Assembly: GCF_020076305.1 (NCBI RefSeq) | Contig: NZ_JAIQXE010000004.1 | Span: 1 to 64,000 of the forward strand | Direction of reading: 5' to 3' | Origin: Flavihumibacter profundi | GTDB taxonomy: Bacteria; Bacteroidota; Bacteroidia; Chitinophagales; Chitinophagaceae | Length of the DNA: 64,000 bases | Part shown: one piece after another, positions 38,536 through 58,120 of the stretch | How the letters are laid out: every line of letters begins with the position of its first letter | Numbering within the stretch: the stretch's first letter is position 1 | Notes under the pieces: model-generated | Seen by the model: only the letters and a program-made list of their open reading frames with translations | The model's database searches: none | What the model was told of the DNA's origin: nothing | Made by a program: the position numbers and the translations under genes

Positions 38536-38564
38536 TGGTTGAATGTATGTTTAGGATTAAGCAT

Positions 38565-39950: not shown

Positions 39951-39959
39951 GATAGGAAT

Positions 39960-41150: not shown

Positions 41151-41166
41151 GGGTTGATTGTGCTGA

Positions 41167-42048: not shown

Positions 42049-42087
42049 AACTAAATAATCTGAAATATGTATCGCTACCTTGAAAAA

Positions 42088-42104
42088 TAAAGATAGCAAA
42101 TGTA
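42088..42104 (-). promoter_or_regulatory. Candidate promoter of the sugar cassette
   Basis: On the minus strand TACATTTG (42104-42097) matches the -7 consensus TAnnTTTG exactly, and TATCTTTA (42095-42088) matches with one mismatch. Either would give a leader of roughly 30-40 nt before the start at 42048. A TTTG lies 16 bases above the second box, shorter than the usual 19-21. Confidence 0.4.
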
Positions 42105-42149
42105 ACTTTTTCAAATTGTACCCGGGCATTTGCAATTTCATTTTCTGCA

Positions 42150-42278
42150 TGCCCCCAATTAATTGTTCCCCTCGTTGAAGCGCCTGGCATTGCAGGCGCT
42201 TTATTAAAAGAAAAAGCAGCAACCCTTATTACTAATGAGTATGCTGCTCTGAAGGACTATTTATTATTGGGTAATTGA
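42150..42278 (+). pseudogene. Remnant of a threonine synthase C-terminus
   Basis: Read on the plus strand, codons 42177-42278 give EAPGIAGALLKEKAATLI, then TNEYAALKDYLLLGN and a TGA stop. The intact ThrC ends with PAAIADTLNKEQKATVL, then KNEYSVLKSYLL; IA, L, KE, AT, NEY, LK and YLL align without gaps. Further upstream the similarity fades (CPQLIVPLV from 42150). The piece has no start codon or body. It lies on the far side of the AT-rich cassette from thrC, so it looks like an older thrC 3' end displaced by insertion, or a partial duplication. Confidence 0.6.
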
Positions 42279-42280
42279 GA

Positions 42281-42300
42281 ACCGTTTACCGTTAATGGCC
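42281..42300 (-). repeat. Partial heptad repeat after the OmpA gene
   Basis: ACCGTTTACCGTTAATGGCC; on the minus strand GGTAAACGGT with degenerate flanks. It directly follows the stop codon of the minus-strand OmpA-family gene. About two units only. Confidence 0.5.
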
Positions 42301-43194
42301 TTATTTTTTCGCTGCTGGTTCCAGGAGTTTAAAAAACTGGTCGAGTTCCGGCAAAATAATAATTCTTGTCCTGCGGTTCAGGGCCCTTCCTTCCTTAGTA
42401 TTATTATCCACTAAAGGCCTGTACTCACTGCGGCCTGCAGCTGATATTTTTGCCGGGGTCATTCCGTAGTCTTTTTGCAGGATCCTGACAACGGAAGTTG
42501 CGCGTTTCACGCTAAGGTCCCAGTTATCCAGCAATACATCCCTGTGGTAAGGAACATTATCGGTATGGCCTTCCACCATAAACTCAATATCAGGCTGATT
42601 TTTCAATACCATTGCCACTTTTCCCAATACCGCTTTTGCTTTGTCGGTAACTGTATAACTTCCGCTTTTAAATAACAGCTTGTCAGAAATATCAATATAT
42701 ACAACCCCCTTATCAACTTTTATATTGATGTCTTTATCATCCATGTTACCAATAGCACCTTTCAGGTTCATCACCAGTGCCATATTCAGCGAATCCTTGT
42801 AAGCCATTTGCTGCTGCAGTGTCTGGATATAAGCATCTTTTGCACCAATGTTTTCCATCGATTGTTTTATGCTTTCAGACTGCTGTTTGCTGATAACCGA
42901 CATACTCTCTAATTGAGACAATGCCTGGGTACTATTTTCTTTCAGGAATGCATTCTGGCTCTGAAGGTCTTCTATCCGCTTGTTCAGTAACCCGTTTTCA
43001 TTTTCAAGCGAGGCTTTTTGGCTGGTCAGGGTTGCTTTATCTGAATTACAGGTCGAGAGGGAAGATTCAAGTGATTTAGCCCTGCTTTCGGAATCTGTAT
43101 ACTGTGATTGCAGAGTTTTGTATTTTTTACTGCTGACACAGGAGATCAGCATGAAAGGAAGGACCATTGCTACAATAATGTTTCGGGTTTTCAT
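42301..43194 (-). CDS. OmpA-family peptidoglycan-binding lipoprotein
   Basis: 297 residues. Lipoprotein signal with lipobox LISC near residue 19, then a long coiled coil (residues ~25-140, heptads rich in Ser, Gln, Leu and Lys), then an OmpA C-terminal domain: VEGHTDNVPYHRDVLLDNWD, SVKRATSVVRIL, and GRSEYRPLVDNNTKEGRALN-RR. Expected to be anchored in the outer membrane and to bind peptidoglycan. Monocistronic, with its own promoter upstream at 43248-43278. Confidence 0.88.
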   Translation of the reverse strand: MKTRNIIVAMVLPFMLISCVSSKKYKTLQSQYTDSESRAKSLESSLSTCNSDKATLTSQKASLENENGLLNKRIEDLQSQNAFLKENSTQALSQLESMSVISKQQSESIKQSMENIGAKDAYIQTLQQQMAYKDSLNMALVMNLKGAIGNMDDKDINIKVDKGVVYIDISDKLLFKSGSYTVTDKAKAVLGKVAMVLKNQPDIEFMVEGHTDNVPYHRDVLLDNWDLSVKRATSVVRILQKDYGMTPAKISAAGRSEYRPLVDNNTKEGRALNRRTRIIILPELDQFFKLLEPAAKK

Positions 43195-43247: not shown

Positions 43248-43278
43248 TAAAGTTAACTCTTTTCCCGTCTATTTCAAA
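43248..43278 (-). promoter_or_regulatory. Promoter of the OmpA-family gene
   Basis: On the minus strand TTTG (43278-43275), 19 bases, TAACTTTA (43255-43248): a near-perfect Bacteroidota promoter. It overlaps the stop codon of the upstream S9 peptidase gene and would give a leader of about 45-50 nt. Confidence 0.6.
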
Positions 43279-45245
43279 TACTTATCAAACCAGGCAATAT
43301 GCCGCTTATAGCGATCCACCAGGTAACTCGGTACAACAATACCGTGGTTCTGCCCCGGATAGATGATCAGCTCAGTTGGAACACCCAGTGTTTTCAAGGC
43401 CTGGTACATTTGTTCTGCGCCGATCACAGGAACATTGAAATCATTCTGGCTTGCCATAAAAAGGGTCGGTGTTTTTATACGATCTGCCTTCAAAAACGGA
43501 TAGGACAAGGCCAGCCATTTTTCTGTATTCTTCCAGGGATAGCCCAATTCCTTTTCATATTGTGAGATATACTGGTCACTACCATACATGCTTAGTTGCA
43601 GTGAACTACCTGCACCACTTACAGCTGCTTTAAACCGCTGGTCGGTAGCAATAGTATAATTAGTGGTGATCCCGCCGTAACTCCATCCCGCCAGTCCCAT
43701 CCGGTTTCCATCCACTACCCCTGAGGCTATCAGGTAGTCTGCAGCACCCAGTACATCCATCACTTCCTTATTTCCCCAATCGCTGTAAATGGCTTTGGTA
43801 TAAGCCACACCCCGGCCACTGCTACCCCGGTAATTGACGGCGGCAACAGCATAACCAGCCGATGCATAAACCAGGCGGGTCATATCAAATTCATATTCAT
43901 CCTGGTCTACCGGTCCTCCGTGTATAAAAATGACCAGGGGTAATTTTGTGTTTGCGGCAGTATTAGCAGGGCGATACAATATGCCACCCACTATGGTACC
44001 ATCCTTGCTTTTACTCCGGAACCCTTCAACCTTTGGCAGTGCCAGGGGCGCCAGGAAGGAATCCTGCACATTGGTGAGTTTTCTCTGTTGCGTTCCTTCG
44101 ATAGCATATATTTCTCCCGGTGTAATTGGGGTACTCATCACCGTTACCCAGCCGTTTTTTGCCTTATTGGTTTCAAGTGTATTAAAACTTTTTTCACCCG
44201 TAACAAGTCGTGTCATTTTTCCGGAAGCCGCATCAAAAGCAACAACCTGCCCCTCCCGGTCATCCTGCATAAGGGCAGCAATCTGCTTACCATCACTGCT
44301 CCACCTGAAATTCTTTACCGGCCTGTCAATCTGAGCCGACAAAATCCTTACTTCCCCACCTGCTGCAGGGACCAGTGCCAGCTGGGTTTGTCCATACATG
44401 GTAAATGTTTCATCGCTGCTGCTTTGGGAATAGGCGATCAATTTGCCATCCGGGCTCCATACGGGATGCATATCTTCACCGGCCCATTTGGTAAGCTGCA
44501 TGGGAACCGCACCGGCTTTTGCTTCCATTACAAATATGTCGGTGTTGTCATTTTTATCCGGCATTTCAGTGCGGTTACTTACAAAAGCAATACGGTTGCC
44601 ATCGGGTGAAAACACAGCCTGTGTCTCATTATAAATACCCCTGGTGAGTGTATCGAGCTTTTTGGTAGCAAGCGTGTACACATAGAGGTGAGTAGCGGTG
44701 CTATCCAGGTAACCCTGGTAGTCTTTCTTGAATTGGTAACGGTCTATCACATAGGGCTTCCTGATTTTTGTAGCTGAGGTATCTGCGTAATTAAGGTCCT
44801 TAATACTCAGCAATAATTGCTGGCCATTGGGCGACCAGTCGTAATCATCAATCTCACCTTTTATATTGGTCAGCTTTTTGGCTTCGCCACCTCTTCTATC
44901 CAACAGGTATAACTGGCTTTGTTTGTCATCGCCACGTGTAGCTATAAACGAAATATATTTCCCATCCGGACTAAAATGCGCATTGCCCTCACTGCCCGGG
45001 TCAAAGGTTAATTGCACCTGTTCCTTGCCATCCCAGCTGACCATCCACAAATCAGTGGACGATTTGTCTTTGGCACTGTCTACAGAGCTCAGGTCGTACA
45101 CAACCCATTTACCATCGGGTGAAACCTTTGGGGATGAAGGTTGTTGCAGTCGGTAAACATCAGAAGGGGAAATCGGGCGTTTGGCCTGCGCCGAAGCAAG
45201 CAATACCATACCAGCGGCGAATACCGTCAGGAAAAAAGACTTCAT
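43269..45245 (-). CDS. S9 family prolyl-oligopeptidase-type peptidase
   Basis: 658 residues. Signal peptide MKSFFLTVFAAGMVLLASAQA, then a TolB/WD40-like propeller with repeated SPDGK motifs (KVSPDGKWVVYDLS, HFSPDGKYISFIA, VFSPDGNRIAFVS, VWSPDGKLIAYSQ), then an alpha/beta-hydrolase domain. Nucleophile Ser522 in GLAGWSYGGITTNY, acid Asp in SQNDFNVPV, His in YPGQNHGIV. Likely a periplasmic dipeptidyl or acylaminoacyl peptidase. Start set at 45245, where the signal peptide begins; the longer frame from 45362 crosses the rpoB terminator. Confidence 0.9.
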   Translation of the reverse strand: MKSFFLTVFAAGMVLLASAQAKRPISPSDVYRLQQPSSPKVSPDGKWVVYDLSSVDSAKDKSSTDLWMVSWDGKEQVQLTFDPGSEGNAHFSPDGKYISFIATRGDDKQSQLYLLDRRGGEAKKLTNIKGEIDDYDWSPNGQQLLLSIKDLNYADTSATKIRKPYVIDRYQFKKDYQGYLDSTATHLYVYTLATKKLDTLTRGIYNETQAVFSPDGNRIAFVSNRTEMPDKNDNTDIFVMEAKAGAVPMQLTKWAGEDMHPVWSPDGKLIAYSQSSSDETFTMYGQTQLALVPAAGGEVRILSAQIDRPVKNFRWSSDGKQIAALMQDDREGQVVAFDAASGKMTRLVTGEKSFNTLETNKAKNGWVTVMSTPITPGEIYAIEGTQQRKLTNVQDSFLAPLALPKVEGFRSKSKDGTIVGGILYRPANTAANTKLPLVIFIHGGPVDQDEYEFDMTRLVYASAGYAVAAVNYRGSSGRGVAYTKAIYSDWGNKEVMDVLGAADYLIASGVVDGNRMGLAGWSYGGITTNYTIATDQRFKAAVSGAGSSLQLSMYGSDQYISQYEKELGYPWKNTEKWLALSYPFLKADRIKTPTLFMASQNDFNVPVIGAEQMYQALKTLGVPTELIIYPGQNHGIVVPSYLVDRYKRHIAWFDKYLK

Positions 45246-45290: not shown

Positions 45291-45324
45291 AAAAAAGCCA
45301 CCCGGATGTTCTCCGGATGGCTTT
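45291..45324 (-). terminator. Terminator after rpoB
   Basis: On the minus strand AAAGCCATCCGGA, loop GAACA, TCCGGGTGGCTTTTTT: a long stem with one or two G-U/mismatch positions followed by a T-run. It lies 31 bases past the rpoB stop, so rpoB transcription ends here, with no rpoC following. Confidence 0.85.
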
Positions 45325-45354: not shown

Positions 45355-48300
45355 TTAATCAAATTTCAGGTCTAGACCTAAACCCCTCAATTCGTGGATC
45401 AACACGTTGAAAGATTCCGGAACACCTGCTTTTGGAATATTGTCGCCTTTAACGATGGCCTCATAGGTCTTAGCGCGACCAATGATATCATCAGACTTAA
45501 TAGTGAGCAATTCCTGCAGGATATTAGATGCACCATATGCTTCCAGTGCCCAAACCTCCATCTCACCGAAACGCTGTCCACCGAACTGGGCTTTACCACC
45601 CAGGGGTTGTTGCGTAATGAGGGAGTATGGTCCGATTGAACGGGCGTGCATTTTGTCATCAACCATGTGGTGCAGTTTGATCATGTAAATGATACCCACT
45701 GTAGCCTTCTGGTGGAAACGATCGCCGGTTTCACCATCATAAAGATGCGTGTGACCCATCATCGGAATACCAGCCTGTGTGCAATAGTTTTCAATTTCTT
45801 CTGTAGTGGCGCCATCAAAAATCGGGGTAGCGAATTTAACGCCCAGTTTCTCACCGCACCAGCCAAGTACTGTTTCATAGATCTGGCCGAGGTTCATACG
45901 GCTTGGTACCCCAAGTGGGTTCAGCACGATATCAACTGGTTCGCCATTTTCCAGGAAAGGCATGTCTTCAGCACGAACGATTTTCGCAACGATACCTTTG
46001 TTACCGTGACGGCCCGCCATTTTATCACCCACTTTCAGCTTACGCTTAACTGCGAGGTAAACTTTTGCCAGTTTCAATACACCTGCCGGTAATTCATCTC
46101 CAATAGAGATATTGAATTTCTCGCGCTTATAGCGACCCAGTTCTTCGTTGTATTTGATGCTAAAGTTGTGCAGCAGAACATTGATCTGGCTATCGACTTT
46201 CTCATCACCTGTCCATCCCAATGGATTGATGTTCAGGTAATCGAGTCCGGCAAGGTTTTTAGCTGTGAACTTCGCGCCTTTACCGATCTGCATTTCACCA
46301 AAGTTGTTGCTAACGCCAGCTGATGGTCTTTCCTTCAGCAGGGTTTGCAGTTTACTCAGGAGAACTTCCTGCAGGTCAGATTCGTTCTTCTCGTGTACTT
46401 TCTCTACTTTCTCCAGGGCTGCCTTTTCGCGAACTTTGGTATTCTTATCTTTCTTTGCACGCTGGAACAGTTTCTTATCGATCACCACACCTTCCACACC
46501 ATTCGGTGCTTTCAGGGAAGCATCTTTAGCATCACCGGCTTTATCACCGAAGATGGCACGAAGCAGTTTCTCTTCAGGAGTAGGATCGCTTTCACCTTTT
46601 GGTGTGATCTTACCAATAAGGATATCCCCTTCCTTTACATGAGCCCCTACGCGAATAATACCATTCTCATCGAGGTCTTTTGTTGCTTCTTCAGAAACGT
46701 TTGGAATATCCGGTGTCAGTTCTTCTTCACCAAGTTTGGTATCGCGCACTTCCAGTTCATATTCAGAAATATGTATAGAAGTGAAGAGGTCTTCACGAAC
46801 AACTTTTTCGTTGATCACGATAGCATCCTCAAAGTTGTAGCCTTTCCATGGCATGAAGGCCACTTTCAGGTTACGACCAAGCGCTACCTCACCACCTTGT
46901 ACCGCATAACCTTCTGTAAGGAATTCGCCTTCTTTCACATGCTGGCCTTTCTTAACGGCAGGCTTCAGTGTGATAGAGGTTTCCTGGTTGGTTTTCTGGT
47001 ATTTGGTGAGCTTATAAATGATCAGGTCTTCTTCAAAACTTACCAGGCGTTGCTGTTCGTTGCGTTCGTAACGGATATGGATTTCATTACCGTCAACATA
47101 TTCTACAACACCATCTCCTTCAGCAAGGATCTGCACACGTGCATCACGGGCAGCTTTGGCTTCAAGGCCGGTACCAACGAAAGGCACCTGTGGTTTGATC
47201 AGCGGTACAGCCTGGCGTTGCATGTTTGATCCCATCAGCGCGCGGTTGGCATCATCATGCTCCAGGAACGGAATCAATGATGCACTCAATCCAACAATCT
47301 GGTTAGGAGCAACGTCCATATATTCAACATCTGCCCTATCGAGGATCGGGAAGTCACCGGTTTCGCGGCTTACTACTTTTTCCTCCATAAATTCACCCTT
47401 TTCACTTAATGGTGAGTTGGCCTGGGCGATCTTGGCGCTATCTTCTTCTTCAGCACTCAGGAAGGTGAGTTCCTTCATGTTTACTTTACCATTCTCAACT
47501 TTGCGGTAAGGTGTTTCAATAAAGCCCATCTCATTGATCTTCGCGTGTACGCAAAGGGTAGAGATCAGACCAATGTTCGGACCTTCCGGGGTTTCAATGG
47601 TACAAAGGCGACCATAATGGGAATAGTGTACGTCACGTACTTCAAACCCTGCACGCTCACGGCTCAAACCACCTGGTCCGAGTGCAGAAATACGACGCTT
47701 GTGCGTGATTTCAGACAAGGGGTTGGTTTGGTCGAGGAACTGTGACAACTGGCTCGTTCCGAAGAAAGAGTTGATCACAGATGAAAGTGTACGGGCATTG
47801 ATAAGGTCAACCGGTGTGAAGACCTCGTTATCACGTACGTTCATCCTTTCACGGATAGTACGCGCCATACGGGCCAATCCAACACCGAATTGTGCATACA
47901 ACTGCTCACCCACGGTACGAACCCGACGGTTGCTCAGGTGATCGATATCATCGATCTCTGCTTTCGCGTTGGTAAGGCGTACCAGGTATTTAATGATTTC
48001 AATAATGTCTTCCTTCGTTAATACCTTATGATCCAGGGGATAATTCAGGTTCAGTTTGCGGTTAATCTTATAACGGCCAACTTCACCTAGGTCATAACGC
48101 TTATCAGAGAAGAACAGTTTGTCGATGATTCCGCGGGCGGTTTCATCATCGGGTGCATCAGCACCACGCAACTGGCGGTAGATGTGCTGAACTGCTTCCA
48201 GTTCACTGTTCGAAGTATCTTTATTCAGGGTATTGTAGATGATTGCATAATCACCACCAACGTCTTCACGCTGCAGGAAAATGCTTTTCACATCCATGTC

Positions 48301-49158
48301 AACCACCATGTCAATGGCTTCTTCATCAAGGATGGTATCACGCTCCAATACCACTTCATTCCTTTCGATGGAAACAACTTCCCCGGTATCTTCATCCACG
48401 AAATCTTCTACCCATGTCCTTAATACGCGGGCAGCGAGTTTCTTACCAAGGAATTTCTCCAGTGCTTTCTTTTCACCCTTCACTTCGTCGGCCATGCCGA
48501 AAAGTTCCAGGATGTCTTTATCTGTTTCAAAGCCGATGGAACGCAATAATGTCGTTACAGGGAACTTTTTCTTACGGTCAATGTAGGCATACATCACGTT
48601 GTTGATGTCTGTCGCAAATTCCATCCATGCACCTTTGAAAGGGATCACACGGGCAGAATAGATCTTGGTACCATTCGGGTGAATGGACTGTCCAAAGAAC
48701 ACACCGGGTGAACGGTGTAACTGCGATACCACAACACGCTCAGCGCCATTGATCACGAAAGTACCACGGGGGGTCATGTATGGGATATTTCCCAAAAACA
48801 CGTCCTGTACAATAGTCTGGAAATCAACGTGCTCTTCGTCATTACAACTCAGGCGCAGTTTTGCTTTCAGGGGAACAGCATAAGTAAGACCACGTTCCAT
48901 ACACTCTTCGATCGTATAACGGGGAGGATCAATGAAATAATCAAGGAACTCCAATACGAAAATGTTGCGGGTATCGGTGATCGGGAAGTTTTCCTTGAAC
49001 ACCTTGAACAAACCTTCGTTGTTACGTTTGTCGGGAGTAGTTTCTAATTGGAAGAAGTCTTTAAACGATTGAATCTGCACTTCCAGCAGGTCAGGAGCTT
49101 CAGCGAGGTGTTTGATCTTACCAAAGTTGATCCTGGTGTTCTGTTTAGTTGAAGACAT
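45355..49158 (-). CDS. rpoB: RNA polymerase beta subunit
   Basis: 1267 residues, full length for Bacteroidota. Recognisable parts: the N-terminal protrusion, the rifampicin region [31 protein letters not shown] (split here as [15 protein letters not shown] and [13 protein letters not shown]), the flap and switch region [15 protein letters not shown], and the end [26 protein letters not shown]-type segment (shown as [15 protein letters not shown]). It normally follows rplL and precedes rpoC; here the DAR-type cluster lies between rplL and rpoB, and a terminator and an S9 peptidase gene follow. It has its own promoter at 49317-49347. Confidence 0.97.
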
Positions 49159-49316
49159 ATGTATTTTAAACCGGTTTTAAAGCTTTTTAATAAACGTCGA
49201 CAGTATATATCCGTTGGGTAAATAGGTCCCCAGTGCGCTGATTGTAAGGAAGTTACATAAAAATGGCCATTTCATAACCTCCCCAGATAATTAGCCGAAC
49301 ATATTAAAACGGACGG

Positions 49317-49347
49317 CAAAGGTAGGGATTTGGGGAGATAAGAACAA
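49317..49347 (-). promoter_or_regulatory. Promoter of rpoB
   Basis: On the minus strand TTG (49347-49345), 20 bases, TACCTTTG (49324-49317), an exact -7 consensus at correct spacing. It predicts a ~150-nt leader before the rpoB ATG at 49158. This explains how rpoB is transcribed despite being cut off from rplL. Confidence 0.7.
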
Positions 49348-49360
49348 GAAATTTTGTGGT

Positions 49361-49430
49361 GTGAATAGTGAATTGTGAATGGTAAATAGGAGGAGCCTGC
49401 ACATTTAACATTCACAATTCACCATTCACC
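49361..49430. repeat. Heptad repeat, AT-rich inverted pair
   Basis: GTGAATA, GTGAATT, GTGAATG, GTAAATA (49361-49388), then the inverted arm 49400-49430, whose complement reads GGTGAATG, GTGAATT, GTGAATG, TTAAATG. On the minus strand the repeat starts right after the TAG stop of the ABC permease, so it lies between the secondary-metabolite operon and the rpoB promoter. Confidence 0.8.
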
Positions 49431-50726
49431 CTACTGCTGCCTCCCGCTCTCCACCAGGCCGGCAATGGTTACAAAAACCGCCGAAAAGCCTAAAAGGATA
49501 GCAAGGTTGGTCCAGACCGCCGGAAGCCCGCCATTACGGAGGAAAATGGTATTGATAGCATCAAGGGCCCAGTGTAGGGGCGAAACTTTGGCCAGTTGCT
49601 GCAACCCGGCGGGTAAGATTTCCACAGGAACCCAGATTCCGCCAATGGCTGACAATATCACAATGGATATTGCCCCGAATGGCAGGGCCTGGTTAGGGGT
49701 TTGGAACAGGGCGCCAATACAAACCCCATAAGCTGTTGCAGTAATGGCAATGACCATGGCAGTCACCAAAAGTGTCAGCGGGGCCTGGCCCATATACAAA
49801 TGCGGTAGACCCAGTTTCGGCAAAATGGCCCAGCCTGCCAGCAGCATACCGTAAAACTGGGCAACGCCCAGCAATACATAAAAAGACAACCTGCCAAACA
49901 GGATGGAAAAATAGGAACCGGGTATCAGCCTGATCCGCATCAGGCTCCCCTCTTCGCGCTCCCTGATCGTATTCCCGGCAATGGGTATGATGATAAAAAA
50001 CAGTCCGAATATGGCCCAGGCCGGTACATTATGCTGTACCGAATTGGTGTTCAGGTTCACTTTGCTCTGCCGGTCGGCAGAAAATTCTTTAATACTGACT
50101 GCCTGCATTTTTTGCTGCAGGTCAAATTCAGGCGATGGACTGCTGTCGCCACCGGCGCTATTCATTCGGTCCGACAGGCGGCCCATGATCATCTCAGCCT
50201 GCACTTTGGTCAGCTGCTTATCCAGTGCGTTCAACAGTGAAAGTTTCATGGCCTGTTTGGTGACCGGGTCAAAATATATCTCCAGGTTGGCGGAACGCGT
50301 TTCACGCTCGGGCAATTTGCCGGCCGCCCCTAATCTTTTACCCATATCATTGGCTACCTGGTTGGCGCTGTTCACGACTTCGGCAGTAATGCCTTCCGGA
50401 ACGATAATGGCGATTTTGAAAGTGCCGGATTGTACCAGTTCCCTGGCCTTGATTTCATCCAATGGTTTGTTCTCATAACTGCTCACCAGCCTGAATTGCG
50501 GGATGGACATAAGTCCATCTTTCATTTTCTCGGCAAGCCGGCCATTATCCTTATTTACCCAAAGCACATCAAACCTGATATCCTGGTATTCCCTGAAGGG
50601 TGCGTCCTGAATCAAAGCCATGATAATGGTTAGGACCAGGGGCATCAAAAATAATAACGCCACTCCCGCCAGGTCTTTCCGGAACAGGCGGAACTCATTG
50701 ATCAGTGTGGCGATAATCTTGCGCAT
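49431..50726 (-). CDS. ABC-2 type transporter permease
   Basis: 431 residues. One N-terminal membrane span (LAGVALLFLMPLVLTIIMALI), a large extracytoplasmic domain (residues ~45-235), then five hydrophobic spans beginning AWAIFGLFFIIIPIAGNTI. GSLMRIRLIPGSYFSILFGR and AIGGIWVPVEILP are typical of the ABC-2/YhgE-NatB permease group. It forms an exporter with the ATPase one base upstream. Last gene of the six-gene minus-strand operon; likely exports the product of the DAR-like pathway or an acylated derivative. Confidence 0.88.
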   Translation of the reverse strand: MRKIIATLINEFRLFRKDLAGVALLFLMPLVLTIIMALIQDAPFREYQDIRFDVLWVNKDNGRLAEKMKDGLMSIPQFRLVSSYENKPLDEIKARELVQSGTFKIAIIVPEGITAEVVNSANQVANDMGKRLGAAGKLPERETRSANLEIYFDPVTKQAMKLSLLNALDKQLTKVQAEMIMGRLSDRMNSAGGDSSPSPEFDLQQKMQAVSIKEFSADRQSKVNLNTNSVQHNVPAWAIFGLFFIIIPIAGNTIREREEGSLMRIRLIPGSYFSILFGRLSFYVLLGVAQFYGMLLAGWAILPKLGLPHLYMGQAPLTLLVTAMVIAITATAYGVCIGALFQTPNQALPFGAISIVILSAIGGIWVPVEILPAGLQQLAKVSPLHWALDAINTIFLRNGGLPAVWTNLAILLGFSAVFVTIAGLVESGRQQ

Positions 50727-50727
50727 A

Positions 50728-51462
50728 TTAATCTCTTACGGTATAACCGGTAAGGTGAAGGAATACCTGTTCAAGGCTGCTGCACTGGTTCTTTTCCATC
50801 AGTTCTGCCGGATTGCCTTTCACCACAAGTTTACCATGGTCTATGATGGCTATTTCATTACAGAGCTGCTGGGCTTCCTCCAAAAGGTGCGAAGTATATA
50901 AAATCGAGTGACCCTGCCCGTGATATTCCTTCAGGAATTGCAGGATCATGTTCCGCGACTGCACATCAACACCGGCTGTCGGCTCATCCAGTATAAGCAA
51001 CCGGGGTTCGTGCAACAGGGCTGCTATAATATTGGCCCGCCTTTTCATGCCGCCGGAAAAATGGCGGATTGCTTTATGCGCACTTTTCTCCAATCCGAAC
51101 AGGTGCAGGTAGCGGCCTGTTTTCTGCCTGATGGCTGCATTCGTTAACCCGTATAATTTACCTATGTATTCCAGGTTCTCTGTGACCGTTAAGGTGGGAT
51201 AGAGCGCAATGGATTGGGGGACTACGCCGATTCTTTTTTTTATCTCTTCCTTGTCTTCTGCGATATCATAGCCCAGAACTTTTACACTGCCGCTATCGGC
51301 TTTCACCAATCCGCATAAGATAGAAATGGTTGTCGTTTTACCGGCACCGTTAGGTCCGAGTAAACCGGCAATAATATTTCCCGGGAAATCGATGGTCAAA
51401 CCGCTTAAGGAAGGCTCTGAGGCCTGGCGGTAAGTTTTATACAATTGGCTGATCGCTAACAT
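50728..51462 (-). CDS. ABC transporter ATP-binding protein
   Basis: 244 residues. Walker A GPNGAGKTTT (about residues 36-45), Q-loop in GVVPQSIALYPTLTV, signature HFSGGMKRR, Walker B LLILDEPTAGVD, and the H-loop region ILYTSHLLEEAQQLC. CcmA/NatA-type ATPase for ABC-2 exporters. It begins 19 bp after the BtrH-like gene and is separated by one base from the permease gene. Confidence 0.92.
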   Translation of the reverse strand: MLAISQLYKTYRQASEPSLSGLTIDFPGNIIAGLLGPNGAGKTTTISILCGLVKADSGSVKVLGYDIAEDKEEIKKRIGVVPQSIALYPTLTVTENLEYIGKLYGLTNAAIRQKTGRYLHLFGLEKSAHKAIRHFSGGMKRRANIIAALLHEPRLLILDEPTAGVDVQSRNMILQFLKEYHGQGHSILYTSHLLEEAQQLCNEIAIIDHGKLVVKGNPAELMEKNQCSSLEQVFLHLTGYTVRD

Positions 51463-51481
51463 AAGGCAGTGGACTGCACGC

Positions 51482-52483
51482 TTACAGTAGTTTTTTTAAC
51501 CGGGTAAAGAAGTCTTTTTCTTTTGCAGAAATTGCGATGAGCATATCACCGAGTTCATTGTAAGAGGACCGGTTACCCGATCTGTCTTTCATAACCCTTG
51601 CAGCAGCATAAGCAAAATTCCTCCACTCGTCGCCAATCTTCGTCATTTCTGCTGACATAGCCAATAATGCATCATTTTTAGTGATGACTGCAGCTTCCTG
51701 CAAAAAGGCCGCATATAAGAAACGGAATCCTGCGCCGCCGGTCCCGATCTCTTCCTGCATCCTGATGATATTACCGGTAAACAATGCTGCCCTCCGGGCA
51801 TCGAGTTTCTGCGGATAAGTTTTTATCCGCCTGCCTAAGAAGGCAATACCCCTGTACCCAAAAAATGGCGGTGGTGACTGCAGCATGAAAAAACAGGTTT
51901 TCTTCATCCCGCTGACAATTGCGGCTGACAGGTCTTTTTTGCCGGATGCCTTCACGGGGTAATACATTTTACCGTTTGGGGCTGGGAACCCTTTCGCGAA
52001 ACGGGCTTTCTCCAGGTCTTCTGCGGAAAGCCTTGTAGCAGTTTCCATTACAGGGTCGCTGATCAGGTATTCATTGTTTTCCTTGCCATAGGCAATTAAG
52101 TTGTGCCCATTAAAATGAAAGCGAAATGCCGGTGGAAAATAACTCAGGTAATACACGCTCGATTGCATGCCAACGGGTTTATTCGCTGCAAGTGCATCAT
52201 CAAGAGCAGCCATTCCTTTTTCGGGTGAAGAAAAGGAGTCCACCTTCATGGTTATGCCCAGCTCCTTACAAACCCTTTTGAAAATATAACCGGGCCAGAT
52301 CCTGAATGTGGTACCTGGTACACCGTTCACTTTTATAAAAGGAAGGTGCCCGAAAAACAAACCTGCACCGATGCCGAAAATCAGTGGTTCGGTTAACTCA
52401 ATGCCGTAATGTCGAAGCAGGCTAAGGGTTACACCACTTTCACAGTGTGCAGATTGCTGGTGGCTAAAATTCTCAATTTTCAT
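51482..52483 (-). CDS. BtrH-like acyltransferase-type protein
   Basis: 333 residues. N-terminal region CESGVTLSLLRHYGIELTEP matches the BtrH N-terminal domain as I remember it; a Cys (residue ~14), then His of FNGHNLIAYGKENNEYLISDP and the following Asp suggest a cysteine-protease-like catalytic set. The C-terminal half resembles DUF4872. BtrH in butirosin biosynthesis moves an acyl group from a carrier protein to its acceptor, so a similar ACP-to-acceptor transfer is plausible here next to ACP and ketosynthase genes. The reaction is inferred, not shown. Confidence 0.72.
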   Translation of the reverse strand: MKIENFSHQQSAHCESGVTLSLLRHYGIELTEPLIFGIGAGLFFGHLPFIKVNGVPGTTFRIWPGYIFKRVCKELGITMKVDSFSSPEKGMAALDDALAANKPVGMQSSVYYLSYFPPAFRFHFNGHNLIAYGKENNEYLISDPVMETATRLSAEDLEKARFAKGFPAPNGKMYYPVKASGKKDLSAAIVSGMKKTCFFMLQSPPPFFGYRGIAFLGRRIKTYPQKLDARRAALFTGNIIRMQEEIGTGGAGFRFLYAAFLQEAAVITKNDALLAMSAEMTKIGDEWRNFAYAAARVMKDRSGNRSSYNELGDMLIAISAKEKDFFTRLKKLL

Positions 52484-52501
52484 TGTGGGTAACCGGTTGC
52501 A

Positions 52502-52915
52502 TTATTGCTGTCCGGGAAAATGCTCGAGGTCTTCAACTGGTATGTTGAAAACGGAAGCATATTGCTGCAATTTTTTTTTGGATAATTTCTTAAACGAAGC
52601 GGGCTGGAGGTGGCGTTTGACAAAAAACTTCCAGATGCCTACATACTGCGCAAGCGTTGACAAGTCCATTAAACTTTTCTCCATGTAATAAGCAATCGGG
52701 CTCAGTTCCCCGGAGATTACTTTTTTGCGGGTTTGTTCAATTTTATCATCAATATCATCCCAGGCCTGGCTCATTGCCAGGTTTTCAGCATCCCAGCCGG
52801 CATACTTGGTGGTTTCATATTTACCGCTTTGGTCAGTTACATACAAAACCTTCACCAGGCTGTTGTCCTGGCCATGAATGATTTTCCTGTCTTGCGGAAC
52901 TTCGTCTTTATTCAT
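52502..52915 (-). CDS. Uncharacterised small protein in the DAR-like operon
   Basis: 137 residues, family not recognised. Hydrophilic, no signal or membrane span; central helix QAWDDIDDKIEQTRKKVISG and a basic region KFFVKRHLQPASFKKLSKKK. Located between DarB-like (5 bp) and BtrH-like (18 bp) genes on the same strand, so it is a likely accessory protein of the pathway. Confidence 0.75.
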   Translation of the reverse strand: MNKDEVPQDRKIIHGQDNSLVKVLYVTDQSGKYETTKYAGWDAENLAMSQAWDDIDDKIEQTRKKVISGELSPIAYYMEKSLMDLSTLAQYVGIWKFFVKRHLQPASFKKLSKKKLQQYASVFNIPVEDLEHFPGQQ

Positions 52916-52920
52916 AGTAA

Positions 52921-54057
52921 TTAAACTACAGTAAAGTGTGCATATATATAAGAAAATCTCGCACTTTCCGGTATCATCACCAAAAGAGTATCCCCTTTTT
53001 TCAGTTTGCCTCCATTGAACATTTCTTCCAGCATCAGGAAAGGGGAAACACTGCCTACATTTCCTACCCGGGTCAGGTTAGTAAACCATTTTTCAGAAGG
53101 TACGGGTAGCCCTATTTTTTCCTGTTCTTTCATGATGATATCACGGAAATATTCTGAAGACAAATGCGGAAGGTACCAGGTGATGCCTTCAACAGTCAGC
53201 TTATGTTTCTCAAATACTTCTTTCATGAACAATCCGCCCATTGGCACAATTTTCACTCCCAGTAATCGGGTATCCTGCTTGAAAGAAAAAATACTCTGGT
53301 TGCCCCACTCTTCAGGAGTAAACTCGGGGAAACCGGTAAGTGTACCATTCGGATTGCGGATTGCGCCTGAATACATACAGGTGGGCAGTTCATTTGCATA
53401 TGACTTGATATCTATGAAATCAACCCGCAGGGAAAGGCCTTCTTTATTTGGTGCATTTTGCACCAATGCCGCCCCGGCCCCATCGCTCAGCATCCAGCGC
53501 ATGAAGTCTTTTTCAAAGGCGATGATAGGGTTGGACTCCAGCTCTTTCAGTTTTTCCGCTTCAGCATCAAACTTATCATGGCGAAGCCAGGTAGATACTT
53601 TTTCAGAAGCAAATGCTACCGCGTTATTAATGTCGCCGTTCTTTACAGAAAGGAAGGCATATTTCAAGGCCTGGAAACCCGAAGCGCAGGAACTGCTGAG
53701 GGAAGCAATTTCAATGGGCGGGCAGCCAAGCTCACCATGCACCATAGCAGTATGGCTTGGCAACAACTGTTCAGGCGACATAGTGCCGCCTGTTAATAAT
53801 TCAATATCATTTTTAGTAATAATGTCATCAAATAATCCTTCGATAGCCTTTGCAGCAAGCTGTGCATTGGTATGGGTACTTTTTCCATTTTTATCAATGG
53901 CATAATAACGGGAAGTGATCTTATTATTTCCAAGGATTTTCAGTCTTGCGCGCGAAGGTTTGCCATCCACCATTCCCAGGTAAAGTTCTATATCATCATT
54001 ACTAACCGGATCATTGGGTAAAAACTTTGACAACCTGTTTACATACACATCTCCCAT
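52921..54057 (-). CDS. darB: DarB-like ketoacyl-ACP synthase III
   Basis: 378 residues, thiolase fold. Full KAS III triad: Cys124 in SLSSSCASGFQALKYA, His298 in WYLPHLSSEY, Asn333 in TRVGNVGSVSPF. The length, the N-terminal VNRLSKFLPNDPVSNDDI segment and the adjacent flavodoxin-like DarA match DarB of dialkylresorcinol pathways (flexirubin clusters of Bacteroidota, DarB of Pseudomonas), which condenses two 3-oxoacyl thioesters. The DarB name is from memory of the family; a plain FabH-like enzyme is the alternative. It follows darA by 44 bp. Confidence 0.75.
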   Translation of the reverse strand: MGDVYVNRLSKFLPNDPVSNDDIELYLGMVDGKPSRARLKILGNNKITSRYYAIDKNGKSTHTNAQLAAKAIEGLFDDIITKNDIELLTGGTMSPEQLLPSHTAMVHGELGCPPIEIASLSSSCASGFQALKYAFLSVKNGDINNAVAFASEKVSTWLRHDKFDAEAEKLKELESNPIIAFEKDFMRWMLSDGAGAALVQNAPNKEGLSLRVDFIDIKSYANELPTCMYSGAIRNPNGTLTGFPEFTPEEWGNQSIFSFKQDTRLLGVKIVPMGGLFMKEVFEKHKLTVEGITWYLPHLSSEYFRDIIMKEQEKIGLPVPSEKWFTNLTRVGNVGSVSPFLMLEEMFNGGKLKKGDTLLVMIPESARFSYIYAHFTVV

Positions 54058-54101
54058 AATTGGTTCAAATTTGGATTCTTCTGCAATATTAAATAGTCAT
54101 T

Positions 54102-55025
54102 TCAGATAACCCCACTTTCATAGCGAATACCTTTAAAATAATTTAGCTGCCGGCGGAATGTCTTCTTCTTAAACAAGCTGATAAGCCTTGCAGTTAATCC
54201 GGATATGGGGGAAAGAACAAAGATTCCTGTCAGCAATAATCTTTTAAAGAGTTTTACGCGGGGCATCCTTGCAGGATTTCCCCTTTCCCCTTTTTCACGG
54301 ATATAAGTAGCGAATTTCCTGAAATTGGTAATTGCTCTTTTTTCAAGTACGATAAGGGTTGGCTTTAGATGCACTGCGCCCGAATCGAGCAGTTTTTGCT
54401 GCAAATTATCAAATTGGCCGGTTTTAAGTGCATCCAGTATAATTGGGCCGAAACGGCTGGCGCCTTCGATATCACGTGTTTGTACACCAGCTTCTGGCAG
54501 CAGGCCTTTTGCCTCTTTCCGCCCGGTGAAAGTCCACCGTATTATTGTAAACAGGCTGATTAAATTGTGGTTGGTATCGGCCAGGACGATATTGCCTACA
54601 TGCCGGGCCCCGATTTTTTGCAAAGCACCTTTTACTTTTTCCTGGGCATTGAGCCACATATTACGAGAGCCGACAACAGTAATGACCGGTTTACCCGAAA
54701 GTACTGCTGCATAGCTGCTTTGCAGGAAGCTGGATGTTGGGATGGATGGCGATAAAAACCAGGGCTGGTACCCAAATATTACCAGGTCATAGGTTTTATC
54801 AGGAATTTGCAGGGGTTTTAATTCAACCGGAATTTCCTTTACACACTCGGGCATAGCATCAAAGAATTGCTCTGAGGTCCAGGGAAAAGGAAAATCCTGC
54901 ACCGGTTTATATTCAACTGTGGTTATCTCGGCTTCATTTGAAACAAGTTTCAGCATATTCCGGATAATATCACTTAATTGCCCGCTTTGTGTATAATAAA
55001 TAACTAAAATATTCTTCGATGCCAT
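54102..55025 (-). CDS. darA: DarA-like flavodoxin-fold protein
   Basis: 307 residues. Flavodoxin-like N-terminus ILVIYYTQSGQLSDIIRNML (residues 5-24) and a second strand pair DLVIFGYQPWFLSPSIP; VITVVGSRNMWLNAQEK follows. The C-terminal region has a hydrophobic stretch (LLLTGIFVLSPISGLTARLI) and a basic tail, so membrane attachment is possible. Such proteins next to DarB are annotated as the dialkylresorcinol condensing/aromatising enzyme DarA. First gene of the minus-strand operon, divergent from the ACP gene. Confidence 0.72.
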   Translation of the reverse strand: MASKNILVIYYTQSGQLSDIIRNMLKLVSNEAEITTVEYKPVQDFPFPWTSEQFFDAMPECVKEIPVELKPLQIPDKTYDLVIFGYQPWFLSPSIPTSSFLQSSYAAVLSGKPVITVVGSRNMWLNAQEKVKGALQKIGARHVGNIVLADTNHNLISLFTIIRWTFTGRKEAKGLLPEAGVQTRDIEGASRFGPIILDALKTGQFDNLQQKLLDSGAVHLKPTLIVLEKRAITNFRKFATYIREKGERGNPARMPRVKLFKRLLLTGIFVLSPISGLTARLISLFKKKTFRRQLNYFKGIRYESGVI

Positions 55026-55122
55026 AGATCATTATATAACTGCCCAAGTTAAATAATTCCATGGTTTCCCCCCATCCATTACATTTTTTTTTCCTGCAGG
55101 GCACGCTAATACTAAATATGGC

Positions 55123-55130
55123 TATTTTTG
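55123..55130 (+). promoter_or_regulatory. -7 promoter box for the ACP-ketosynthase operon
   Basis: TATTTTTG fits TAnnTTTG exactly and lies 24 bases before the ACP start at 55155. No TTG box is seen at the right distance upstream. Confidence 0.4.
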
Positions 55131-55154
55131 AGAACATTAATCAAAACGCCTTGA

Positions 55155-55412
55155 ATGGAAGATTTTAAACGTGCTTTGAAACTGCAGATAATTGAAGCAC
55201 TTAGCCTGCAGGGTATGCAACCTGAAGAGATAGACGATGATGCACCCCTGTTTGGCGACGGACTTGGTTTAGACAGTATAGATTCCCTTGAAATGATTGT
55301 ATTACTGGAACGCAATTATGGAATTAAAATAGAGGATCCGCGCGAAGGTCGCCGTGTATTTGAATCAATACAGGTAATGGCAGATTATATCCAGGCCAAC
55401 AGAAAAAAATAA
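55155..55412 (+). CDS. Acyl carrier protein
   Basis: 85 residues. Phosphopantetheine attachment Ser41 in GLGLDSIDSLEMIVLLE; acidic helices and a length typical of type II ACPs. Start at 55155 (MEDFKRALKL). It opens the plus-strand operon with two ketosynthase-type genes, 3 bp before the first. It corresponds by position to DarC or flexirubin-cluster ACPs, not to the housekeeping AcpP, whose usual neighbours (fabF, fabD) are absent. Confidence 0.9.
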   Translation: MEDFKRALKLQIIEALSLQGMQPEEIDDDAPLFGDGLGLDSIDSLEMIVLLERNYGIKIEDPREGRRVFESIQVMADYIQANRKK

Positions 55413-55415
55413 GAC

Positions 55416-56624
55416 ATGCGCAGCGTGTATGTGACTGGTATGGGAATTATTTCCGCCTTGGGAATTGGCGTAACTGAAAACCGGTCTGCGTTATTAGCCA
55501 TGCAATCCGGCATTTCGCATTCGAGCCACCTGAACAGTCTACTGAAAGACAAATTGCCGGCAGCAGAGATAAAAGAAGATACTGCGACCTTACATAATTT
55601 ACTCAGGTACCCTGGTCAATTATTTCCCAACCGGTTGGTCAGTATGGCCGCACTAGCTATGGAAGAGGCGCTCGGTGAAACTGCATATCAACCAGGAATG
55701 GGTAAAATGGGTTTCATCAACGCAACATCTGTTGGTGGCATGGCCGATGTTGAAGACCATTACACTGAATTGGTCGATCCTTCAAAAAGCGAAGCAGCTA
55801 TTAACCTGCTTGGTGATACACTCGATTGCGGACACTGCACAGAGGAACTAGCCCGGCATTTTCACCTGGCCAGGTTTATCGGAACCGTCAGTACTGCCTG
55901 TTCTTCTTCAGCTAACGCGCTGATGTATGGCGCCCGGCTGATCAGGAACGGAGTATTGGATGGTGCAATTTGTGGTGGCGCAGATACCCTCACCCGCTTT
56001 ACCCTGAACGGCTTTAACAGCCTTAAAAATATTGACAGGAACCCATGCAAACCATTTGATGCCAACAGGAACGGACTTAATCTTGGTGAAGGTGCGGCTT
56101 ACCTGGTTTTGGAATCAGAAGAAATGATGTACGCATCGGGTCGGAAACCGCTTGCGGTATTCAGCGGATTCTGCAATTACAATGAAGCCTTTCACCCGAC
56201 ATCACCATCACCCGAAGGAGAAGGCGCCTACCGGGCCATGAAAGGTGCCATTGAAATCGCCCAATTAAAAACCAGTGATATTTCCTACATCAATGCACAT
56301 GGTACAGCTACCATCAACAATGATATTGCTGAAGCTATAGCCATGAAAAAATTGTTTGGGGAAAATATGCCTGCGTTCAGTTCTACAAAATGTTATACGG
56401 GTCATACCCTGGCAGCCGCGGGAGCCATTGAAGCCATATTTTCAGTATTCAATATCCGGCATAATGAGTTGTACCCGGTTTTAAATTTTGAAACACCAAT
56501 GCCTGAGATAAAGCTATTACCCCTGACGGCAGTAAAAGAGCATACCTCAATTGAACATGTGTTAAGTAATTCATTTGGATTTGGCGGCAATAATGCCAGC
56601 CTCTTATTCAGTAAATATGCTTAG
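55416..56624 (+). CDS. FabF-type ketosynthase
   Basis: 402 residues. Complete condensing-enzyme triad: Cys162 in STACSSSANALMYGA, His295 in NAHGTATINND, His330 in STKCYTGHTLAAAG (with Lys325). It begins VYVTGMGIISALGIGV and ends in the KS signature SNSFGFGGNNASLLF. Type II elongation enzyme, likely acting with the ACP 3 bp upstream. The downstream KS-like gene overlaps it by 8 bases, the arrangement of KS-alpha/KS-beta pairs. Confidence 0.9.
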   Translation: MRSVYVTGMGIISALGIGVTENRSALLAMQSGISHSSHLNSLLKDKLPAAEIKEDTATLHNLLRYPGQLFPNRLVSMAALAMEEALGETAYQPGMGKMGFINATSVGGMADVEDHYTELVDPSKSEAAINLLGDTLDCGHCTEELARHFHLARFIGTVSTACSSSANALMYGARLIRNGVLDGAICGGADTLTRFTLNGFNSLKNIDRNPCKPFDANRNGLNLGEGAAYLVLESEEMMYASGRKPLAVFSGFCNYNEAFHPTSPSPEGEGAYRAMKGAIEIAQLKTSDISYINAHGTATINNDIAEAIAMKKLFGENMPAFSSTKCYTGHTLAAAGAIEAIFSVFNIRHNELYPVLNFETPMPEIKLLPLTAVKEHTSIEHVLSNSFGFGGNNASLLFSKYA

Positions 56625-57687
56625 CCCGGTTTATATACGATCTGCCCGTGCGATCTGCGCACAAGACACCTTCGGCAATAATGATTTGCCCGGGGAACTG
56701 ACGGAAGCAACAGGCAACAGTTTACATTACCTGCACCCGGATTACAGTAAATATTTTACGATCATGCAGCTGAGGCGAATGAGCCGTGTAACACGCACGG
56801 GCCTTGTTGCGGCAATTGAGAGTCTTGCTGATGCCGGCATAAAAAAACCTGAAGCAATCATCACAGGAACCGGTAAGGGCAGCATTTATGATACCGAAAA
56901 ATTCATCCAGAATATCCTCGAATTCCATGAAGGCACATTAAATCCCACCCCGTTTATCCAGTCAACTTATAATTCATTAAACGGATTAATAGGATTGCAA
57001 TACGGTGCAAGTTGTTACAATACAACTTATGTCCATCGTGGATTTTCGCTGGAGCTGGCCCTTACCGATGCAATGATGCTTTTACAGGAAGGGGAAATTG
57101 AACAGGCACTTGTAGGATGTTTTGAAGAGATATCCCCGGAACATTATATCATTAAGCAAAAACTGGGTGCATGGAAAAAGGAACCGGTTTCCTGCAGGGA
57201 ATTGATTGCGTCAAAAACTACAGGCAGTATAGCCGGCGAGGGTACATTCTTTTTTGTAGTACAAAAAAACAAAGCGGGTGCGCTGGCAAAACTGAGTGGA
57301 TTACGGATGTTATTTGAGCCAACAGTTGCTGCAGTTTTAGATGAACTGACCAGCCTGTTAAAGGAGCACCACCTGCGAAGGGAAGATATTGACCTGGTTA
57401 TACTGGGATATAACGGGGATGTGCGGCATAATCATTACTACGATGCAGTATTGGCTGCCAGTGATACCAGCACTTGCATACAATGCTTTAAACCTGCCTG
57501 CGGGGAATTTGACACTGCGGTTGGTTTTGCAGTATGGATGGCAGCTTGGGCAGCCCAACGCCAACAGGTTTTTCCCAGCCTTACCATCAGGCCCGCAATG
57601 AAGGGTCCCATAAAAAATATAATCATCTACAATCATTACCAGGCAAAGGACCATGTGCTTTACCTGCTGCAGCAGACAGAAGATTAA
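56617..57687 (+). CDS. Ketosynthase-like partner lacking the active site
   Basis: 356 residues from the start at 56617 (MLSPVYIRSARAICA), overlapping the KS stop by 8 bases. The fold is ketosynthase-like (GYNGD where HGT is expected, GEFDTAVGFAVW where GHT is expected), but the nucleophile position reads YVHRGFS with His140 in place of Cys, and the two catalytic His are absent. It is therefore probably a chain-length-factor-type (KS-beta) partner, not a condensing enzyme. The longer frame from 56575 only adds residues inside the KS gene. Confidence 0.8.
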   Translation: MLSPVYIRSARAICAQDTFGNNDLPGELTEATGNSLHYLHPDYSKYFTIMQLRRMSRVTRTGLVAAIESLADAGIKKPEAIITGTGKGSIYDTEKFIQNILEFHEGTLNPTPFIQSTYNSLNGLIGLQYGASCYNTTYVHRGFSLELALTDAMMLLQEGEIEQALVGCFEEISPEHYIIKQKLGAWKKEPVSCRELIASKTTGSIAGEGTFFFVVQKNKAGALAKLSGLRMLFEPTVAAVLDELTSLLKEHHLRREDIDLVILGYNGDVRHNHYYDAVLAASDTSTCIQCFKPACGEFDTAVGFAVWMAAWAAQRQQVFPSLTIRPAMKGPIKNIIIYNHYQAKDHVLYLLQQTED

Positions 57688-57698
57688 GATCCAGGACA

Positions 57699-57729
57699 CA
57701 AAAAAAGCCGCAATAAAATTGCGGCTTAA
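57699..57729 (-). terminator. Terminator after rplL
   Basis: AAGCCGCAA (57705-57713), loop TAAAA, TTGCGGCTT (57719-57727); on the minus strand a run of about seven T follows. It ends the ribosomal-protein transcript 20 bases past rplL, so rplL and rpoB are not in one transcription unit. It may weakly serve the convergent ketosynthase operon too. Confidence 0.85.
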
Positions 57730-57748
57730 TTATTCAGGTTGAACAGGA

Positions 57749-58120
57749 TTAGTTGATTTCTACATCAGCACCTGCTTCTTTCAGTTTGTTAGCGATATCA
57801 TCAGCTTCTGCTTTAGATACACCTTCTTTAACTGCTTTAGGAGCACCGTCAACTAGTTCTTTAGCTTCTTTCAGTCCAAGACCAGTAAGGTCTTTAACGA
57901 TTTTCACTACGTTCAGTTTAGAAGCACCACCGCTTTTCAGGATTACATTGAAAGCAGTTTTTTCTTCTACAACAGCTGCGCCAGCGCCTTCTGCTGCTAC
58001 TACTACTGCAGCTGCAGCAGGTTCGATACCGTACTCGGATTTCAGAAAATCAGCCAGTTCCTGTACTTCTTTTACAGTGAGGCTTACCAGTTGTTCAGCT
58101 AATACTTTTACGTCTGCCAT
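57749..58120 (-). CDS. rplL: Ribosomal protein L7/L12
   Basis: 123 residues: N-terminal dimerisation helices ([20 protein letters not shown]), Ala-rich hinge ([20 protein letters not shown]), and the conserved C-terminal domain with [20 protein letters not shown] and [14 protein letters not shown]. Stalk protein recruiting translation GTPases. 106 bp after rplJ. Normally followed by rpoB; here a terminator follows. Confidence 0.97.

Follow-up and report, generated by a model that had tools for sequence, protein, structure and literature searches.

Old and recurrent loss of rplL-rpoB-rpoC linkage in Flavihumibacter profundi and other Chitinophagaceae

The genes for the β and β′ subunits of RNA polymerase, rpoB and rpoC, are to our knowledge adjacent in nearly all bacteria, a linkage commonly attributed to the requirement that two subunits which assemble with each other be made in equal amounts. 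In Flavihumibacter profundi, which belongs to a genus of soil bacteria, the rplKAJL-rpoBC string is interrupted on both sides of rpoB. The locus lies in the window analysed here, the first 64 kb of contig C4 in a genome of 4.87 Mb and six contigs, where 8.6 kb and nine open reading frames (49431-57687) separate rplL from rpoB, and where rpoB is followed by a predicted terminator and an S9 peptidase gene instead of rpoC, as a reading of the sequence alone had already described. Comparison of gene order among relatives confirms that loss of linkage is old and recurrent in the family Chitinophagaceae, and that the rpoB/rpoC and rplL/rpoB breaks are separate events. No report of rpoB/rpoC separation in this family was found in a literature search that left subscription journals largely outside its reach.

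Within the genus, rpoB and rpoC are apart in all 12 scorable genomes, by 32-141 kb in the 11 that carry both genes on one contig; two genomes (G006, G011) are too incomplete to score, and the fragmented G002 is in agreement. In the family, 70 genomes from 69 genera were scored by eye, with gaps of up to ~1.1 kb counted as adjacent and that of G160 (4.2 kb) as apart. The genes are apart in 29 of the 66 scorable genomes and adjacent in 37 (G171, G186, G188 and G191 are not scorable), and the distance could be measured on one contig in 12 of the 29, ranging from 4.2 kb to 1.6 Mb. No rpoC lies within 10 kb of rpoB in Hydrotalea sandarakina and Pollutibacter soli, and the distance in Hydrotalea is 37 kb. 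The comparison of gene order proposed in the sequence-only reading thus shows that the split is not peculiar to the window genome. In other families of the order, the genes are apart in four of the 20 scorable genomes (G037, G042, G050 and G057; G041, G049 and G051 could not be scored), and the habit is therefore not confined to Chitinophagaceae. A class-wide draw, likewise scored by eye, gave 74 genomes with both ends visible among the matches listed, 71 of them with adjacent genes; the exceptions are the window genome and two genomes of one other genus, with the genes on different contigs. Outside these 74 lie 14 genomes with no second match listed and two with no match. Once three family members are removed, 69 of the 71 pairs outside the order, among the matches listed, are adjacent and two are apart.

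With regard to the location of rpoC, a search of the contigs of the window genome found it in single copy on a different contig (C1:114557-118720), and no second copy of either rpoB or rpoC was found in these contigs. The first 20 kb of the window are collinear with one stretch of the closed congener G013, while the first 20 kb of C1 give three short alignments (188, 147 and 515 bp) in reversed collinear order on the adjoining G013 stretch; ~12 kb of G013 between the two sets of matches have no match in these contig ends. Because the ends of C4 and C1 match adjoining stretches, rpoC would lie downstream of rpoB on the same strand, at about 160 kb (~45 + 114 kb), if the two contigs are joined as in G013. 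The corresponding distance is 141 kb in G013 and 33 kb in the single-contig congener G007. Directly 3' of rpoC, ompH is found in all 11 Flavihumibacter genomes with this stretch in view, and it also follows rpoC in G022, G031, G154 and many intact relatives. Since rpoC has kept this neighbour, the cut in the window lineage would have fallen in the gap between rpoB and rpoC.

The two breaks are held to be separate because two congeners, G007 and G001, have rplL and rpoB only 0.28-0.29 kb apart, yet their rpoB and rpoC are not together. The window rpoB shares 97% identity (best segment) with that of Flavihumibacter stibioxidans and 96% with that of F. cheonanensis, in keeping with its genus, and in a tree of rpoB and rpoC combined G007 is the first branch within the genus (100/100) and G001 stands beside F. 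stibioxidans (94/96; 99/98 with codon positions 1+2). On an 81-row family tree, which omits L003, L008 and L028, the rpoB/rpoC link requires at least seven changes of state among 77 scored rows and the rplL/rpoB link at least nine; four rows were left unscored for the former and ten for the latter, and L035 was scored as split from only 2.2 kb of downstream sequence. When rpoC is used alone or jointly with rpoB, the sister genus G022 is placed with L041 and G160, which are both fast-evolving rows. The start of the rpoC leader of G158 resembles those of Flavihumibacter and G022, yet G158 falls outside their group with weak support, so that any dating of the rpoB/rpoC split in Flavihumibacter and G022 is tentative.

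Sigma-A promoters of Bacteroidota carry an upstream TTG. Their -7 box is TAnnTTTG (PMC9723704), and the window rpoB has such a box with a TTG 17-22 nt upstream: the exact promoter that the sequence-only reading had placed before rpoB (TTG-N20-TACCTTTG) is found there, beginning 189 nt 5' of the start codon, and the strong terminator that it had placed behind rplL is likewise present as a predicted 10-bp stem with a T run. Both features recur in relatives. The box was searched over 350 nt in rows with the genes apart and over the shorter gap in adjacent rows, with expected counts that allow for this span; L001-L003 were omitted, and two genomes are counted twice (L008/L027, L028/L107) among the 52 rows in which rplL is either apart or not in view. 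In these 52 rows the rpoB box is found in 50 (11 expected), and 33 rows (1.5 expected) have the full motif, TTG-TAnnTTTG. Where rplL is adjacent, 18 of 60 rows have the box (9.1 expected), 14 of them clearly Chitinophagaceae. Upstream of an rpoC that adjoins rpoB, the box occurs in five of 71 rows (2.9 expected) and the full motif in none. Among the rows of the family tree, all 40 with rplL apart bear the rpoB box, as do 15 of the 31 adjacent ones. A terminator 3' of rplL is predicted in 12 of 20 Chitinophagaceae loci that are still adjacent (0.0 expected by shuffling), in 21 of 23 loci that are apart (a count with no shuffle control) and, among loci from other Bacteroidota, in 10 of 39 (0.3 expected); L055 was skipped, L077, titled Chitinophagaceae, was counted with the others, and L087 among the 23 is from Saprospiraceae. 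Some relatives in which rplL and rpoB still touch therefore already have promoter and terminator, so that these elements look like preconditions of the break, not repairs, and transcription at rpoB seems to have been separated before the genes were. The claim that promoter and terminator accommodate the split holds in so far as both are there, and has to be recast in this sense. In the Saprospiraceae rows L065-L069 and L084, a different hairpin (GGCTTAGCC...GGCTAGGCC type), perhaps an attenuator, lies between adjacent rplL and rpoB.

Once separated, rpoC also seems to be served by a promoter and a long leader of its own, as rpoB is in this genus. The survey comprised 31 split genomes, namely 27 of the 29 family splits (all except G009 and G160) together with G005, G007, G012 and G042; a -7 box lies 60-230 nt upstream of rpoC in 27 and of rpoB in 30 of them. 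With a shuffle control over 20 rows, 19 rpoC boxes were observed against 2.1 expected, and the full TTG motif is present in nine of 22 rpoC rows with the genes apart (0.4 expected). The rpoC of the window genome has the TAnnTTTG box alone, 168 nt upstream, and lacks the full motif. In G024 (L133, L134) the rpoC leader is plainly related to the rpoB leader of the same genome, judging by an alignment score of 75 against 22 +- 4 in shuffles (0/300). The next lowest values, in G154 (9/300), G180 (12/300) and G005 (15/300), are little above chance over 31 tests. A profile of 53 rpoB leaders was run against 17 rpoC leaders, and its ten best matches are ten Flavihumibacter rpoC leaders (5.4-10 bits, E 0.008-0.2), nine of them aligned from the 5' end of the leader, with best scores of 0.8 bits for 33 promoter-following decoys and 2.2 for 170 shuffles. 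As the ten leaders are interrelated and the E-values moderate, this is a hint of kinship between the rpoC and rpoB leaders of the genus, not proof. A pattern shared by the two leaders of the window genome occurs in both leaders and in four copies of an unrelated repeat, with five matches in the control, and is given no weight.

In most sampled family members outside the Chitinophaga group, rpoB bears a sigma-A-type promoter and its leader measures ~100-160 nt; Chitinophaga lacks the promoter box, and an intact relative that has it is a Sediminibacterium-like strain. Leaders of ~150 nt are long for the phylum: according to PMC9723704, the median 5' untranslated region is 24 nt for F. psychrophilum and 32 nt for B. 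thetaiotaomicron. In 11 of the 12 Flavihumibacter rpoC leaders, the window's own (L004) being excluded, a predicted hairpin covaries, its top stem changing in sequence while pairing is kept: native arms give -6.8 kcal/mol and swapped arms -3.8 (0/2000 permutations), with the same result for the nine leaders left after two close relatives are dropped. RNAalifold on a MAFFT alignment of the rpoC leaders gave 16 pairs, four with double changes, and a covariation term of only -0.14. At the gathering threshold, Rfam found only tRNAs in window positions 43000-64000, and no family for the rpoB leader.

Directly before the start codon, many of these leaders carry a palindrome. Perfect palindromes of at least 10 bp within 34 nt 5' of the start codon were counted with L003, L013, L027, L028 and L107 omitted; the remaining rows are still interrelated. 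They occur in 43 of 61 Chitinophagaceae rpoB rows that bear the promoter (3.5 expected), in one of nine that do not (0.4 expected) and in one of 38 rpoB rows from other Bacteroidota (1.4 expected). For rpoC, the counts are 12 of 31 where it is split from rpoB (2.4 expected) and three of 59 where it adjoins it (4.0 expected); other genes, with the first ATG taken as start, are at chance level (15 of 397, 15.8 expected). At a threshold of at least 8 bp the excess for split rpoC is small (12 against 7.4). The core AAACCGGTTT is common by descent to 24 of the 43 rpoB palindromes, others being AAAAGCGCTTTT, AAAACGTTTT and TAAAAGCTTTTA, and ATTGCAAT is common to eight of the 12 rpoC palindromes. Because the symmetry persists as the letters change, it suggests a symmetric binding site or a paired RNA. 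Leader and variable palindrome together might be recognised by a dimeric regulator, or by a dimerising RNA, which would balance β and β′ in trans in place of a shared mRNA; they would then form a portable cassette that makes the operon breakable, although we regard this extension as doubtful. It is weakened by the Flavihumibacter rpoC leaders, the window's own included, which have no palindrome of at least 8 bp: they end, for example, in AATCTGCAGTATATCT, with a symmetry of 6 bp only, while G022 has AATCTGCAGATT.

The nine genes between rplL and rpoB look like the dialkylresorcinol part of flexirubin synthesis, and will be called the dar module. The DarB-type ketosynthase exceeds the cut-off of one family model and misses that of another by half a bit, and both DarG and DarH score above theirs. 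The 307-aa protein encoded next to darB is on account of this position probably DarA, with no family match in Pfam and NCBIfam searches; a chain-length-factor role for the second ketosynthase-like protein is a guess. Among 13 congeners searched, darB is present in 11, in ten between rplL and rpoB (in G004 judged from coordinates only) and in the fragmented G002 on the rplL contig. The 8.6-kb insert is also present in G013 and G012. G007 and G001, where the darB search gave nothing above background, have apparently lost the module. In G022, the sister genus in rpoB trees (support 99; 99/96), one contig reads rplL, chain-length factor, ketosynthase, acyl carrier protein, darA, darB, and another carries darG, darH, ATPase and permease upstream of rpoB (L151/L152), the module thus being cut between darB and darG. 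Since the gene order is identical in both genera, the simplest reading is a single insertion before Flavihumibacter and G022 diverged, after which G007 and G001 lost the module and that of G022 was cut. A history with two insertions and a single loss takes just as many insertion and loss steps, but requires the same module to have landed twice at the same place. The statement that a biosynthetic cluster broke the linkage accordingly applies to the rplL/rpoB gap and not to the rpoB/rpoC break, which is separate and also found in G007 and G001.

In G005, G008, G010 and G014, further genes separate the dar permease from rpoB, namely a ROK-family gene, a SusC-type receptor gene and followers (L010:9199-17424), and a similar block in G003 has distant SusC/D-like genes; the SusD label of the next gene follows from its position, as an NCBIfam search gave no match for it. 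The same interval of the window holds an imperfect inverted repeat (49364-49436, GTGAATGGTGAATTGTGAATG ... CCATTCACAATTCAC). A repeat-mediated break there was considered and dropped, the single 15-mer tested having one occurrence only in the genome.

Taken together, these observations probably reflect an old, real and stepwise dissolution of the rplKAJL-rpoBC string that was repeated in several Chitinophagaceae lineages. As comparison of the lineages suggests, rpoB would first have acquired a sigma-A-type promoter and a leader, often with a terminator after rplL, even where the genes still touch. With rpoB already a separate transcription unit, insertion of DNA between rplL and rpoB would have been harmless, and the dar module may have entered before Flavihumibacter parted from its sister genus, to be joined in some species by the ROK/SusC block and lost in two. 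A separate event would then have parted rpoB from rpoC, with rpoC retaining its downstream ompH in the window lineage and gaining its own promoter and long leader. In the G024 lineage this leader would be a clear copy of that of rpoB, and because of this copy the parting may have gone through duplication of the front end of rpoB, or of rpoBC, followed by differential loss. Finally, the balance between the two subunits would be struck in trans, each gene relying on its own promoter and leader instead of on one mRNA.

Several results weigh against this account. When promoter and rplL break were compared in a paired test, the mere three independent contrasts available gave no significance. At rpoC, G024 alone shows a plain leader copy, most pairwise leader tests are not significant, and the seven leaders from other lineages, among them those of G022 and G024, reached at most -1.2 against the profile or had no match. 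The rpoB leaders gave no consensus fold in RNAalifold, and single-sequence folding z-scores are modest (mean -1.3 for rpoB, -1.6 for rpoC). ompH was not found behind rpoC in G021 and G023, and the split genome G042, from another family, has no rpoB promoter box. In 17 of the 29 family splits the genes are on different contigs, and a few of these could be effects of assembly; in all four splits from other families of the order the genes are on different contigs as well. Promoters, terminators and leaders are, furthermore, predictions from sequence. Some of these points favour a neutral decay of the operon, in which gene order is shuffled and promoters come as a rescue after each break, not before it. 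Several lineages are broken, at distances from 4 kb to 1.6 Mb, and since no rpoC promoter is seen in intact genomes, promoter and break must coincide at rpoC, whereas the paired test fails to show that the promoter preceded the break. Such a decay is conceivable but on balance unlikely, in view of the rpoB boxes and rplL terminators (15 of 31 rows and 12 of 20 loci) already present where the genes are still adjacent.

The other alternatives concern the assembly and the origin of the parts. A misassembled or chimeric contig, which the sequence-only reading had named as what would overturn it, might be suspected since the window begins where contig C4 begins and rpoC was assembled into a different contig. 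This explanation has a negligible chance of being right and was rejected, as the split is present in the single-contig genomes G007 and G013 and in all 12 scorable congeners, the dar insert is shared with G013 and G012, and the ends of C4 and C1 align, in order, with neighbouring stretches of G013. Horizontal replacement of rpoC, or of the rplL-dar-rpoB segment, by that of another lineage is very improbable. In its favour, recombination could in principle carry a dar module to one site in two genera, and G022, which adjoins Flavihumibacter when the tree is built from rpoB, joins L041 and G160 when it is built from rpoC. Yet these last two are fast-evolving, trees of rpoB only and rpoC only agree in holding Flavihumibacter together with G007 branching first, its rpoC keeps the common ompH neighbour, and both rpoB and rpoC are single copies. 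It is also quite unlikely that the dar module was placed there for growth-linked expression, by reading into rpoB or by borrowing the activity of the ribosomal operon. Six dar genes do point towards rpoB, with no terminator found by the scan on that strand between permease and rpoB, and the position is kept in the congeners noted above, but a predicted terminator closes rplL, a promoter of its own stands before rpoB, and the module is missing from two congeners.

The features of the locus are collected in Table 1, where the start codon of the S9 peptidase was placed from a signal-peptide-like N terminus. A sigma-70-type promoter scan gave 38 hits against 29.3 +- 5.4 in shuffles, for a consensus that differs from that of the phylum, and was set aside. 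The G+C content is 0.37-0.40 at positions 36000-43000 and ~0.43-0.50 around them, and this may be a foreign or mobile segment.

Table 1. Features at the rpoB locus of F. profundi (window positions unless a locus is named)
Feature	Position	Strand	Basis
S9 prolyl oligopeptidase, downstream of rpoB	43269..45245	-	Pfam PF00326 1.8e-48
Predicted intrinsic terminator 3' of rpoB, 13-bp stem	45294..45324	-	terminator scan
rpoB, RNA polymerase beta subunit, single copy	45355..49158	-	NCBIfam TIGR02013, 1827 bits, cut-off 801
Predicted rpoB 5' leader, ~150 nt	49159..49316	-	alignable within genus
Palindrome AAACCGGTTT directly 5' of rpoB start codon	49168..49177	-	sequence
Predicted rpoB promoter, Bacteroidota sigma-A type, TTG-N20-TACCTTTG	49317..49347	-	sequence; similar motif in relatives
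ABC-2 permease, dar module	49431..50726	-	PF12698 2.9e-31
ABC ATPase, dar module	50728..51462	-	PF00005; best NCBIfam DrrA, below its cut-off
DarH, BtrH-related acyltransferase	51482..52483	-	NF053550 461 bits, cut-off 300
DarG	52502..52915	-	NF053545 176 bits, cut-off 170
DarB-like ketosynthase	52921..54057	-	NF005293 532.5 bits, cut-off 450; NF053539 549.5 bits, cut-off 550
307-aa protein, probable DarA	54102..55025	-	position beside darB
Acyl carrier protein	55155..55412	+	PF00550; NF006617 76 bits, cut-off 70
Beta-ketoacyl-ACP synthase	55416..56624	+	PF00109, PF02801
Second ketosynthase-like protein	56608..57687	+	PF13723 3.7e-11
Predicted intrinsic terminator 3' of rplL, 10-bp stem + T run	57705..57727	-	terminator scan
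rplL	57749..58120	-	TIGR00855, 118.5 bits, cut-off 84.4
rpoC leader of the window genome	L004:13355-13514		congeners' leaders with covarying hairpin

The gene set, and the order of rplKAJL, are those of the rif or beta operon of E. coli, where an attenuator in the rplL-rpoB gap decouples the r-proteins from rpoBC (PMC4670729) and rpoBC is subject to autogenous control of its own (PMC10931766). In F. profundi, the decoupling would instead be achieved by a predicted terminator together with a newly gained promoter and leader. Physically, too, the string is interrupted at both joints, and β′ is ~160 kb from β by synteny. The promoters resemble the sigma-A promoters of the phylum in their -7 box, whereas the leaders are several times longer than the medians cited above. 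The dar module in turn resembles the dar locus of C. pinensis in that the DarB, DarG and DarH families are recognised in the window. The locus numbers of darB and darA are consecutive in C. pinensis, where both genes lie away from the polyene (flx) cluster (PMC3992019); the module of the window differs in sitting between rplL and rpoB.

A family in which the rpoB-rpoC pair is split in several lineages, with intact relatives alongside, constitutes a natural experiment. It allows one to ask what the linkage serves, be it stoichiometry, co-translational assembly or regulation, and what the prerequisites are for giving it up. If the doubtful idea of a portable leader cassette were true, such a cassette would render breakable an operon that is among the most conserved in bacteria.

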